Shown here piece by piece: positions 28,287-33,254 of a stretch of 64,000 bases of DNA. Under the pieces are notes generated by a model that saw only the letters and a program-made list of their open reading frames with translations, was not told the origin of the DNA and searched no databases. Numbering within the stretch: position 1 is the stretch's first letter; every line of letters starts with the position of its first letter. Source of the stretch: Natronosalvus caseinilyticus (lineage in GTDB: Archaea; Halobacteriota; Halobacteria; Halobacteriales; Natrialbaceae); contig NZ_CP071596.1 of the NCBI RefSeq assembly GCF_017357105.1, forward strand, positions 2,232,001-2,296,000. Reading direction: 5' to 3'. The translations under genes and the position numbers were made by a program.

Positions 28287-29032
28287 GGCACTGTCTAGTT
28301 GAGCCAGTTTGAGGAACGAGCAGGTCGTTGAGTGAATTGGGCTAGAATGCTCGCAGACCTGCTCAGCGAGTCCTACGACGCGGATTTAGAAGAATCTTGG
28401 GAGAACGAGCGGACAGCGACGCCCGTCAGGGCGTTCGCCGTCCGCCTCCACGAAACCGGGTGTTCGCTCCGCGAGACAACTTCAATATTAGCAGAATTAG
28501 GCGTTGAACGCTCGCATGGAGCGGTCTGGAACTGGGTGCATCGGCTGGCTAACAACGGATGCGACCCGCCTGAGGCGCAGCCGAAGCGGGTCGCGGTTGA
28601 CGAGACTGCTGTCAAGATCAACGGCGAGTGGTCTTGGTTGTACGCTGCAATAGACACCGAGACGAAGCTGGTTCTCGACGTCGCGTTATTTGGTCGGCAT
28701 GGCACCGATCCGGCAGCTGCGTTTCTACATCGACTCGACGAGAAATACGATCTCTCCGACACCGTATTTCTCGTGGATCAATTCGGATATCGGACTGCCC
28801 TTGCTCGATTAGGATTGAGCGGTCGGATCAACTATACCGAGCGAAACCTCATCGAAAAATGGTTTCACACCCTCAAAATTCGCATCGACCGCTTCCACAA
28901 TTCATGGGTGGGCAGTCGGTCGAGCGCACGCGAATGGTTTGAGCAGTTCATGCACTACTACAACCGTCAGAGACCGCACCAAGCTCTCGACGGAAAGACG
29001 CCGATCGAGGAGGTGCAGAACTAGACAGTGCC
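28287..29032 (+). mobile_element. intact IS6-family insertion sequence (746 bp)
   Basis: Terminal inverted repeats GGCACTGTCTAGTT (28287-28300) and AACTAGACAGTGCC (29019-29032) are perfect over 14 bp and enclose one transposase gene. An 8-bp duplication CCATAACT on both sides matches the IS6 target-duplication size. Perfect ends and duplication point to a recent insertion. It split the upstream region of the small membrane protein gene. Confidence 0.95.
28332..29024 (+). CDS. IS6-family transposase
   Basis: 230-aa DDE transposase. Helix-turn-helix N-terminus (CSLRETTSILAELGVERSHG), then the catalytic triad: Asp in KRVAVDETAVKI, Asp in TVFLVDQFGY and Glu in NYTERNLIEKWFHTLK, with the IS6 end YYNRQRPHQALDGKTPIEEV. 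The start may be GTG/TTG-like at 28332 (frame begins MNWARMLADLL); an ATG at 28347 is the alternative. The stop codon lies within the right inverted repeat. No frameshift is present, so it should be active. Confidence 0.93.
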   Translation: MNWARMLADLLSESYDADLEESWENERTATPVRAFAVRLHETGCSLRETTSILAELGVERSHGAVWNWVHRLANNGCDPPEAQPKRVAVDETAVKINGEWSWLYAAIDTETKLVLDVALFGRHGTDPAAAFLHRLDEKYDLSDTVFLVDQFGYRTALARLGLSGRINYTERNLIEKWFHTLKIRIDRFHNSWVGSRSSAREWFEQFMHYYNRQRPHQALDGKTPIEEVQN

Positions 29033-29648: not shown

Positions 29649-29672
29649 ACCCGTTGTCACTGGTGGGGTGCG

Positions 29673-29679
29673 TATAAAA
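29673..29679 (-). promoter_or_regulatory. TATA box for coaD
   Basis: TATAAAA (plus strand) 25-31 bp from the coaD ATG, with the correct spacing for leaderless transcription. Confidence 0.65.
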
Positions 29680-29775
29680 GGGTCGAATCGTCGATTCCCG
29701 CTCGCGAGCGATATACGACGATCGTCGAACATCCGCTTCGCATCGTTTTTTGTACTGCACGTTCCTCTCCCCGAT

Positions 29776-32031
29776 ATGGGACTGGACGAAGACTCGCTGG
29801 AGTATCACCGGAGCGAGCCACCGGGCAAGATCGAAATTTCGACGACGAAGCCGACGAACACCCAGCGGGACCTCTCGCTGGCGTACTCGCCGGGGGTCGC
29901 CGCGCCGTGTATGGAGATCCACGAGGACGAAACCGACGCCTACACCTACACGGCGAAGGGCAATCTCGTGGGCGTCGTCTCGAACGGCTCTGCCGTCCTC
30001 GGGCTGGGCGACATCGGCGCCCAGGCTTCGAAACCCGTCATGGAGGGCAAGGGCGTCCTGTTCAAGCGCTTCGCCGACATCGACGTCTTCGACATCGAAC
30101 TCGACGAGGCCGACCCCCACAAACTCGTCGAGGCGATCAAGATGATGGAACCGACCTTCGGTGGCGTCAACCTCGAGGACATCAAGGCCCCCGAGTGTTT
30201 CACCATCGAGGAGCGCCTCCGCGAGGAGATGGACGTCCCCGTCTTCCACGACGACCAGCACGGGACGGCCATCATCTCCGGCGCCGCACTCGTCAACGCC
30301 GCCGAAATCGCCGGCAAGGACCTCGAGGACCTGAACATCGTCTTCTCTGGCGCCGGGGCGAGCGCGCTCTCGACGGCCCGGTTCTACGTTTCCTTGGGCG
30401 CGAAGCGAGAGAACATTCAGATGTGTGACTCCTCGGGAATCATCACGCAGGCGCGAGCCGACGCCGGCGACGTCAACGAGTACAAACGCGAGTTCGCCCG
30501 CGACGTCCCCGAAGGCGACCTGGCGGACGCGCTCGAGGGTGCGGACGTCTTCGTCGGCCTCTCGGTGGGCGGCATCGTCTCCCCGGAGATGGTCAGATCG
30601 ATGGGCGACAATCCGATCATCTTCGCGATGGCGAACCCGGACCCCGAAATCGGCTACCAGGAGGCCAAAGATGCCCGCGACGACGACGTCATCATGGCCA
30701 CCGGACGCTCGGACTACCCCAACCAGGTTAACAACGTCCTCGGGTTCCCGTTCATCTTCCGCGGCGCCCTCGACGTCCGCGCGACCGAGATTAACGAGGC
30801 GATGAAAGTCGCGGCAGCCGAGGCGCTCGCGGACCTCGCCCGCCAGGACGTCCCCGACGCCGTCGTCAAGGCCTACGGCGACGAGGCGATCCAGTTCGGC
30901 CCCGACTACATCATCCCCAAGCCGGTCGACCCCCGGGTGCTGTTCCGCGTCGCACCGGCCGTCGCCCAGGCCGCGATGGACTCCGGGGCCGCCCGGACCG
31001 AGATCGACGTCGAGGCCTACGAGGAGCAACTCGAGGCCCGCCTCGGGAAGTCCCGGGAGATGATGCGCGTGGTTCTCAACAAGGCCAAGAGCGACCCCAA
31101 GCGGGTCGCGCTCGCTGAAGGAGAGGACGAGAAGATGATCCGCGCGGCCTACCAGCTCGCCGAACAGGGGATCGCCGATCCGATCCTCATCGGCGAGGAG
31201 GACACGATCGCCCGGACGGCGGCGAACCTCGGCCTCGACTTCACGCCCACCGTTGCGGACCCGACCGCGGGTGCCTACGACGAGTACGCCGAACGGCTGT
31301 TCGAGCTGCGCCAGCGCAAGGGGATCACGCGCTCGGAGGCGACTGAACTGATCCGCCGGGACACGAACTACTTCGGCAGTGTGATGGTCGAAGAGGGGGA
31401 TGCTGACGCCCTGCTCACGGGCCTGACCCACCACTATCCCTCGGCGCTTCGGCCGCCGTTGCAGGTCATCGGCACCGCCGACGACGTCGACTACGCCGCG
31501 GGCGTCTACCTCATGACGTTCAAGAATCGGATCGTCTTCTGTGCCGACGCCACCGTGAACCAGGACCCCGACGAGGAGGTGCTGGCGGAGGTCACGAAAC
31601 AGACCGCGAAACTCGCCCGCCGGTTCAACGTCGAGCCGCGAGCGGCCCTGCTCTCGTACTCGAACTTCGGGAGCGTCGACAACGAGGGGACCCGAAAGCC
31701 GCGTCGCGCCGCCGCGATGCTCCAGGGCGACCCCGAGGTTGACTTCCCCGTCGACGGCGAGATGCAGGCCGACACGGCCGTCGTCGAGGACATCCTCACC
31801 GGTACCTACGAGTTCTCCGACCTGGACGCGCCGGCGAACGTGCTCGTCTTCCCGAACCTCGAGTCGGGCAATATCGGCTACAAACTCCTTCAGCGCCTCG
31901 GCGGTGCGGAGGCCATCGGCCCGATGCTCGTCGGGATGGACAAACCGGTCCACGTGCTCCAGCGAGGCGACGAGGTCAAAGACATCGTCAACCTGGCCGG
32001 AGTGGCGGTCGTCGACGCCCAGTCGGAGTAA
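29776..32031 (+). CDS. maeB: NADP-dependent malic enzyme with C-terminal phosphotransacetylase-like domain
   Basis: 751 aa. Decarboxylates malate to pyruvate with NADP. N-terminal malic domain (about 1-430): [63 protein letters not shown]-binding [15 protein letters not shown]. The C-terminal ~320 residues are a PTA_PTB (phosphate acetyl/butyryltransferase) domain ([17 protein letters not shown] to [21 protein letters not shown]), as in MaeB-type fusions, where it acts as an acetyl-CoA sensor rather than an enzyme. The ATG at 29776 gives the canonical start. An AT-rich TTTTTTGT lies about 30 bp upstream. Confidence 0.96.
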
Positions 32032-32453
32032 CGCGCGTACTGGTGTTCGGTGATCTCAATTTTTGACTTCTGACTCTGAATCGCCAACCGCAGCGGTACG
32101 ACTCTCGGACGACTAGTCGCTCGAAGTCGGTGCCAGGTGTCAGGTGTCAGTGAGGAGTGAGAATGGCCACCTCGGGAGGGGGGGGGGGAGGGTGGGAGAG
32201 GTGGCCAGATTCGATCGTCAACGGGTGAATTCCAAGCGGTCTGTGTCCTCTCGCGCTCGAGGTTTCAGACCAATTTGAAAGTCACCGACAGACACAAAGA
32301 ACGTTAACCTGTCATATTCAAGCACCCGTTTATACGGCGTTACGTCCTCGATTTCAGCGGGTAGAATCGATTGTCCTAGTTCGGTTCCCGGTTCGGTAGT
32401 TCCCAGTCTTCCGACCGAGGTTAGACGTCGAGTAGCCCGTTCGTTCTACGCGA
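32032..32453. other. 422-bp convergent region with a G-quadruplex hairpin
   Basis: Between the malic enzyme gene and the glycosyltransferase (tail to tail). No gene is present. It holds the inverted repeat and G-tract at 32164-32207 described separately, and an AT-richer half (32270-32330). Its function is probably in termination or in something structural. Confidence 0.6.
32164..32207 (+). terminator. perfect 10-bp stem with G-quadruplex loop
   Basis: TGGCCACCTC (32164-32173) and GAGGTGGCCA (32198-32207) are exact inverted complements. The 24-nt loop is GGGA, eleven G, A, GGG, T, GGG, A, four or more G3 tracts with 1-nt loops, the canonical G4 pattern; the opposite strand is an i-motif candidate. 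It lies about 130 bp after the malic enzyme stop and 250 bp before the glycosyltransferase stop. Roles in termination or replication pausing are conjecture. Confidence 0.6.
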
Positions 32454-33254
32454 TCACCCAAACACGCGCCCGACGTCCAACCTGACGTAGTGCCAGAGCG
32501 TGCCCGTCAGACCGCTCGCCGCGATTCGTCGACCCGACGTCTCGACCAGCACCCGCGGACAGTACCCCGTCGGGAACGAGCGCGCGAGCGCCCGACTGAA
32601 CGCCGTATCCTCGTTGGCGACCGGCGGAAAGCCGCTGATCGCCTCGAACGCGTCGCGGTGGACGAACGTGTTGAACCCCGGCAGGATCGGCCGCTCGAGT
32701 CGCGGAAACGCGTAGTTGATCGTCGCCTCCATGCACTTCGCCCGGAGGGGGCCGGTCACCCGACAGCGCGAGGAAGCCGCGGCCAGCCCCTCGGCCTCGA
32801 CGAACCCGAGCATCCGGGTCAGGTACGAGGCACGAACCTCGGTGTCGGCGTCGACGAAGGCCAGCCACTTGCCCTCGGCCCGGCGAGCACCGCGGTTTCG
32901 CCCCGCCGCGATTCCGTCCGCCGGGCCGGAGACGACCGTCACATCGTACTCGCGGGCGACGTCTCGAGTGGCGTCGCTCGAGTCGCCGTCGACGACGATC
33001 ACCTCGTAGCCGTAGGCAGTGTCCAGGGCCTCGATGCTCGAGAGGGCTCCCCGGATGTACTCGGCTTCGTTGCGCGCGGGAACGACGAAACTGACCAGGG
33101 GTCGGCTCGAGCGGTCGGCGCGTCTGGCGCGTTGGCCGTCGGTGCGGTCACCCGCGTCGGTCCGTTCGGGTTCACAACCGCCGTCCGCACGCGTCTCCCG
33201 GTTTCGGTTGTCTCCAGTGTCCAACCCCGTCGACCGCCGCCTCGAACGTCGCAT
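32454..33254 (-). CDS. family 2 glycosyltransferase
   Basis: 266 aa, GT-A fold. SFVVPARNEAEYIRGALSSI (about 54-73), YEVIVVDGDSSDATRDVA, GPADGIAAGRNRGARRAEGK and the metal-binding FVDADTEVR (about 132). There is no clear membrane helix. The N-terminal ~45 residues are Arg/Asp-rich and probably disordered. Acceptor unknown; haloarchaeal homologues serve N-glycosylation or lipid/cell-surface polysaccharide synthesis. Its neighbours are unrelated, so it is not part of a visible glycosylation cluster. Confidence 0.85.
   Translation of the reverse strand: MRRSRRRSTGLDTGDNRNRETRADGGCEPERTDAGDRTDGQRARRADRSSRPLVSFVVPARNEAEYIRGALSSIEALDTAYGYEVIVVDGDSSDATRDVAREYDVTVVSGPADGIAAGRNRGARRAEGKWLAFVDADTEVRASYLTRMLGFVEAEGLAAASSRCRVTGPLRAKCMEATINYAFPRLERPILPGFNTFVHRDAFEAISGFPPVANEDTAFSRALARSFPTGYCPRVLVETSGRRIAASGLTGTLWHYVRLDVGRVFG

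Follow-up and report, generated by a model that had tools for sequence, protein, structure and literature searches.

A hairpin with a G-quadruplex motif between convergent Natronosalvus genes is the 5' end of a dispersed, structured noncoding element

What is a perfect hairpin with a G-quadruplex (G4) motif in its loop doing between two convergent genes of the haloarchaeon Natronosalvus caseinilyticus? The window analyzed here is a stretch of 64,000 nucleotides of this genome (contig NZ_CP071596.1, positions 2,232,001 to 2,296,000). A sequence-only reading had described a 10-bp perfect stem around a G-rich loop at 32164–32207, and the sequence bears this out; the loop holds G-tracts of 3, 11, 3 and 3 separated by single-base spacers. 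The stem lies, as that reading had also stated, between the malic enzyme gene, which ends at 32031 (+), and the glycosyltransferase gene, which ends at 32454 (-). We find that the G4 hairpin is the 5' hairpin (P1) of a structured noncoding element of ~150–160 nt, at window positions 32164–32322 (Table 1).

Table 1. Features of the malic enzyme–glycosyltransferase locus, in window coordinates
Feature	Position	Strand	Remarks
Malic enzyme fused to phosphotransacetylase domain	29668..32031	+	longest-ORF start
T5 tract downstream of the malic enzyme stop codon, probably the terminator of this gene	32060..32064	+	absent in G002
Entire conserved element of 159 bp, from the P1 hairpin through the 3' tail	32164..32322	+	bounds by comparison of four copies; covariance-model match 32162-32325
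P1 5' arm, TGGCCACCTC	32164..32173	+	pairs with 32198-32207; helix present in 15/15 copies, 94% of cells paired
P1 loop with G4 motif, GGGAGGGGGGGGGGGAGGGTGGGA	32174..32197	+	G4 motif in 3/15 copies
P1 3' arm, GAGGTGGCCA	32198..32207	+	pairs with 32164-32173
P2 5' arm GGTGA, proposed	32224..32228	+	hand-placed for the window group; partner 32282-32286
P3 5' arm GGTCTG	32238..32243	+	97.8% of cells paired, 15 copies
P3b 5' arm CCTC	32247..32250	+	pairs with GAGG 32259-32262
P3 3' arm CAGACC	32266..32271	+	partner of 32238-32243
P2 3' arm TCACC, proposed	32282..32286	+	TCGCC in G002 still pairs via U.G
Conserved 3' tail, GTTRACCTGTCATATTCAAG	32303..32322	+	strongest primary-sequence conservation in copies with 69% overall identity
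3' flank, CCTCGATTTCAG...	32346..32369	+	weakly resembles the flank 3' of the element in three group A copies
Glycosyltransferase (family-2 type), convergent neighbor	32454..33254	-	

The sequence-only reading had held that such a stem around a G-run was unlikely to arise by chance. This did not hold for the stem by itself, as the window contains seven perfect inverted repeats with arms of at least 10 bp and loops of 3–40. It did hold for the coincidence of stem and G4: the motif in the P1 loop is the sole G4 motif (loops up to 7) in the 64-kb window, and the best 25-nt G4Hunter score is 2.88 there versus 1.76 at the next-ranked place. In 400 kb sampled from this genome as 20 stretches out of 4.2 Mb, nine G4 motifs occurred, none of them closed by a stem of more than 4 bp. 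Long G-runs were rare in this sample (L043–L062), with one 13-base G/C homopolymer run besides 57 runs of 6.

The exact stem pattern occurred once in the own genome (G000) and in 2 of the 392 genomes of the order, both within Natronosalvus. When the stem was sought in related genomes, it was present in G004, which we take to be Natronosalvus rutilus WLHS1, and interrupted by a 2-nt bulge in a third species (G002), and both share the gene order malic enzyme, hairpin, glycosyltransferase. Their loop reads GGGAGGGGGAGGGTGGGA, in which the run of eleven G of the window is a run of five in both; the motif is still present, and thus survives a change in run length. That the structure is a chance inverted repeat around a slipping G-run has, in our judgment, a negligible probability: repeats with arms of this size are frequent enough in the window, but the stem recurs in 15 copies with paired changes and is conserved across species.

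Those copies were collected with sequence and covariance searches. A BLAST-type search with window positions 32150–32360 gave a 71% match on a plasmid of N. rutilus. This plasmid copy shares the stem and the GGTCTG/CAGACC hairpin and carries the tail TTGACCTGTCATATTCAAG; its loop measures 8 nt and holds no G4. A covariance model (R1) of the window-group sequences and one plasmid copy (four sequences) found eight further full-length places in three genomes, with E values from 6e-6 to 0.34. A second model (R2), made from those eight copies alone and from none of the window group, recovered the window copy with 53.8 bits (E 9.3e-10), as well as two more places and one copy adjoining a known one; two further R2 matches at E 0.14 were treated as chance. 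A third model (R3) of all 15 copies was searched over eight Natronosalvus genomes and gave 15 copies in three of them: seven in the own genome (the window copy and three others on the chromosome, and three on replicon C2), five in N. rutilus, spread over C1, C2 and C3, and three in G002. No R3 copy was found in G001, G003, G005 or G007. The count of 15 was taken after one R3 match at E 0.2 in the incomplete genome G006, R1 matches at E 0.008–0.7 in G342, G333 and G007 (short in G342 and G333), R2 matches at E 0.04–0.05 in G162 and G335, and a BLAST match of 35 bases in G416 (E 0.005) had been dropped. The copies are 144–159 bp long, and inspection by eye revealed no small reading frame kept among them.

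In wider searches run with stricter filters, which weak copies may escape, R2 matched 5 of the 392 genomes of the order at E 0.05 and R1 matched 6 of the 125 genomes of the family at E 1; three in each case were the Natronosalvus carriers. There was no convincing copy outside these three among the 392 sampled genomes of the order. A sequence-only profile, run over the examined loci, gave the same 15 copies and otherwise weak reverse-strand self matches and one G006 match (E 0.0045), at the locus dropped above; it found nothing in 30 TnpB loci or in the 400-kb sample. The stem pattern was absent from the viral contigs searched, and the window element had no match among plasmid records. The plasmid copy of N. 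rutilus matched its own N. rutilus record only and no phage. Scans of genome contigs gave no match for a 20-mer and, for a 19-mer, one chance match in a Bacteroidales contig. The element is best read as lineage-specific, dispersed over chromosomes and plasmids within one Natronosalvus branch.

The copies share paired structure as well as sequence. In the 15-row alignment, 91.3% of 400 cells were paired, compared to 82.8% after shuffling (none of 500 shuffles as high) and 29–50% in slid-partner controls, and double changes numbered 37 cells versus 13.7 in shuffles; these counts are biased towards structure, the alignments having been fitted to the model, and in alignment A9 row D is misregistered by 2 nt, so that some P1 double changes are not real. 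A clean double change is the P3 pair GGCCTG/CAGGCC in a plasmid copy, and the foot of P1 shows a C-G to U-A change. Every one of the 15 copies retains P1 and P3, and both helices show paired changes. The closing helix P2 is partly supported: equivalents in other groups are UGRUGG/CCACCA and UGAUGC/GCAUCA, and placement by hand gave GGUGA/UCACC in group C and GGAUC/GAUC(C) in group D. RNAalifold, applied to eight copies of groups A and B, recovered P1, P2, P3 and small inner helices, with 28 pairs of which 6 were changed on both sides. Compensatory changes in these fitted alignments exceed the controls, a mark that a role as single-stranded DNA would leave equally.

Free folding was used to compare the strands. 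The consensus fold of the 15 rows had z -12 on the + strand and -10 on the - strand, with none of 60 column shuffles as low, so that both strands yield strong consensus folds; on + it recovered P1 and P3 only. Single sequences, with P1 left out for group C, gained little over shuffles (z -2.3 to 0, and -2.7 for one copy). For group C alone, the + fold was no better than shuffles (7 of 60 as low), and the - fold was better (0 of 60). A strand test on 12 copies revealed no preference, with 10 G.U and 9 A.C. Eight copies directly follow a small gene or gene remnant and, judged by eye, all have the orientation of that gene; this shared orientation is the one ground on which we prefer the + strand. 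No promoter was identified for the element.

The G4 motif was found in 3 of the 15 copies, all of them malic-enzyme copies. In the other 12, the longest G-run of the P1 loop is 4–6 in eight copies and 2–3 in four. Since the motif is present in some copies only, the element and not the quadruplex is the object of study. The framed G4 put forward by the sequence-only reading is thus real and conserved in relatives, but the hairpin is not the unit: the unit is 159 bp, and the G4 is an optional part of it. The motif of the malic-enzyme copies, known here from its pattern and its G4Hunter score, looks like local growth of an older G-rich loop. Potential quadruplex sequences are reported to be commoner in annotated archaeal noncoding RNA than in genes (PMC7565180). 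It could be argued that the G4 itself is functional, as a replication pause, recombination site or protein site, with the remainder as its carrier. The motif is kept in three malic-enzyme copies although its run length changed, and G4s in DNA and RNA, with helicase effects on them, have been reported for Haloferax volcanii (PMC12873603). We regard this explanation as very unlikely, as the rest of the element is conserved in 12 copies that carry no G4 motif.

A further proposal was that the hairpin acts as a bidirectional transcription terminator for its convergent neighbors. Its position between convergent genes at two independent loci fits this proposal, as do T4–5 tracts after P1 on the - strand in four of the 15 copies. 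In H. volcanii, a T stretch is described as the main intergenic terminator motif, and one hairpin that was tested gave 59% termination (PMC7237163). The pattern of an intrinsic terminator, a hairpin and then a T-run, was nevertheless not seen on the + strand: in none of the 15 copies does a T-run of at least 4 follow either P1 or the 3' end. The window already has a T5 tract upstream of the element, and this tract is probably a better terminator candidate for the malic enzyme gene than the element; at the second locus, in the own genome, a GC hairpin with T5 (CACCTGCGGTGCGGTTTTT) stands between the yciH gene and the element. P2, P3 and the tail would also serve no need in a terminator. Because of the missing + T-runs, the T5 tract of the window and the H. 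volcanii motif data, we did not uphold the proposal and consider it unlikely to be right.

Conservation at the two loci points to selection. Between the window and N. rutilus, positions 32164–32322 differ by 1 substitution in 153 aligned bases, the G-run aside; the flanking spacer is 80–85% identical and the third codon positions of both neighbors 84%. With sites taken as independent and an expected divergence of 16%, at most one change in 153 has P ~1e-10. Against G002, positions 32198–32345 are 89% identical versus 86% for the adjoining spacer, which is moderate conservation only. The second of these, the group B locus, again has convergent neighbors, yciH (SUI1) and a rhodanese gene. The element there is 96–97% identical, versus 66–82% for the downstream flank, 83–93% for the upstream flank and 72–87% for the box region. 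Being better conserved than its flanks at both loci, the element is kept by selection where it is located. In the own genome, a second malic enzyme copy (G000:C1:370743-370865), 93% identical over the matched end, has no element downstream.

The yciH locus also records a gain. From the yciH stop to the rhodanese stop, the three carrier species have gaps of 488, 492 and 524 bp, and G005, G001, G003 and G007, which lack the element, have gaps of 110, 118, 139 and 177 bp; no yciH match was found in G006. The shorter gap in four relatives indicates that the element was gained at this locus. The gain would amount to ~0.3–0.4 kb, comprising the element and flanks with unreadable ends; loss in the four relatives is formally possible.

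Gain and dispersal raise the possibility of a transposase-free mobile DNA repeat, similar to the PATEs and SMRs of haloarchaea, whose hairpins would act as single-stranded DNA in transposition and which would have no RNA function. Its 15 copies are scattered over chromosomes and plasmids, some clustered with repeated ~31-bp boxes, and a palindrome stands at one end; in haloarchaeal PATEs, palindromes are found near the terminus, and inverted ends are absent (PMC3119063). Copies at two loci are, however, more alike between species than their flanks, as passive repeats would not be, and no target duplication was established. MITEs carry terminal inverted repeats and target-site duplications; in the present family, the beginning and end of the aligned core (TGGCC..., ...TTCAAG) do not form an inverted pair, and the flanks are too diverged for a duplication to be visible. 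We hold the mobile-repeat explanation to be possible but doubtful.

Known families and mobile elements were compared directly. An IS200/IS605-derived PATE or omegaRNA was rejected, as the family profile, at E 0.01, matched nowhere in the TnpB loci examined or within 1.5 kb of them (30 of the 75 TnpB matches in three genomes). A TnpB/omegaRNA origin was rejected since the 3' ends were unlike the element in the 16 of these 30 loci that were readable; both results also count against the mobile-repeat explanation. REP/BIME sequences, which are palindromes of 20–40 bp in high copy number, were set aside, the element being 144–159 bp long with 15 copies over three genomes. A search of window positions 31900–32700 against Rfam 15 gave two unrelated matches up to E 10, both far below gathering, and six other copies gave nothing on the element up to E 1. 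A sub-threshold match to sot0042 (sense overlapping transcript RNA; L109:626-762), 44.6 bits versus a gathering score of 88, lies ~0.7 kb from one chromosomal copy. A transposase-like ORF was read from the sequence at window positions 28332-29024, shortly upstream of the malic enzyme region. The open-access literature on G4s, haloarchaeal repeats, Natronosalvus, termination, integrons and structured RNAs contained no paper on this element family that we could find; subscription papers were mostly outside the scope of this search.

Several copies lie in gene clusters with a repeated box. In copies of groups A and E, a box of ~31 nt (about GACTCGAGGGTTCCGGTACGTGGATCGGTAG) immediately precedes P1; within these clusters it recurs ahead of the small membrane-protein genes, and every occurrence closely follows a stop codon. 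In plasmid clusters, ~31-bp direct-repeat boxes part small membrane-protein genes (C-terminus LYE) from the element (L131:8602-9305, L135:8354-9058, L130:8557-9063). Some clusters have one of the membrane-protein genes and others have both. These small proteins, encoded upstream of several copies of the element, matched no Pfam family above cut-off, no NCBIfam and no PHROGs family. Just upstream of a cluster on replicon C2 (L131:6404-8485), a radical-SAM protein gene is followed by a gene without Pfam match, which we take to resemble three-Cys-motif partner proteins. On an N. rutilus plasmid (NZ_CP100357.1; L135:5101-8095), a tyrosine recombinase gene lies ~2 kb from one of the element clusters, and the sequence beside the last box is similar to site-specific integrases from other plasmids. 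The arrangement suggests that modules may have been exchanged at the boxes between clusters. A more speculative and rather improbable extension would make the element a noncoding cassette within a modular archaeal array. In such an array, ~31-bp boxes would part small membrane-protein genes and the RNA module, and modules would be shuffled at these sites, with a tyrosine recombinase as a possible agent; RNA modules would escape to the chromosome and be used between convergent genes, where one gained a G4 cap.

On comparative sequence evidence, the element is a real, dispersed and structured family: ~150 nt long, it has spread to several chromosome and plasmid sites in one Natronosalvus branch and is selected where it landed. 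We consider it moderately probable that it works as RNA. It would be transcribed with the upstream gene or from the same strand, which is the G-rich strand, and the RNA would fold into P1, the closing helix P2 and the hairpin P3. The exposed conserved 3' tail, GUUGRCCYGUCRUAUUCA, may bind a target RNA or protein. At the malic enzyme locus, the P1 loop would have grown to a G4 motif that might lock the P1 end in the KCl-rich cytosol.

If the RNA reading is true, the family is a structured RNA that moves between haloarchaeal plasmids and chromosomes and is then selected. Its P1 loops would form a natural series from plain G-runs to a full G-quadruplex motif, through which the effect of a G4 in an RNA hairpin of a K+-rich archaeal cell could be tested by comparing copies and swapping loops. 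The striking G4 hairpin spotted by eye is the tip of a larger element. In one respect this is one more small noncoding family; the G-rich P1 loop, the presence on several replicons and the later conservation are unusual.

Candidate structured RNAs from comparative genomics are likewise recognized by covariation in intergenic regions; the present element has no Rfam 15 family, and it is set apart by a G-rich P1 loop that carries a G4 motif in one branch. The sotRNA or TnpB guide RNAs (Rfam sot0042) are haloarchaeal noncoding RNAs tied to mobile DNA, a trait that the element would share. Unlike them, it has no TnpB beside it in the window, its 3' ends are different and it has no Rfam match. BIME and BOX are interspersed palindromic elements of bacteria, also structured intergenic repeats. 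REP sequences of bacteria share with the element the character of structured intergenic repeats (PMC3733652). In contrast to REP, BIME and BOX, the element is ~150 nt long, has three helices and a conserved tail, occurs in 3–7 copies per genome and belongs to one branch of an archaeal genus. Also comparable are the PATEs, SMRs and MITEs of Haloquadratum walsbyi (PMC3119063), which are similarly short, noncoding, dispersed and gained at new sites, with palindromes in the case of PATEs; the Natronosalvus element differs from them in being unlike the examined TnpB-type loci of the same genomes, in its few copies, in its conserved multi-helix pairing and in the selection that followed its insertion.
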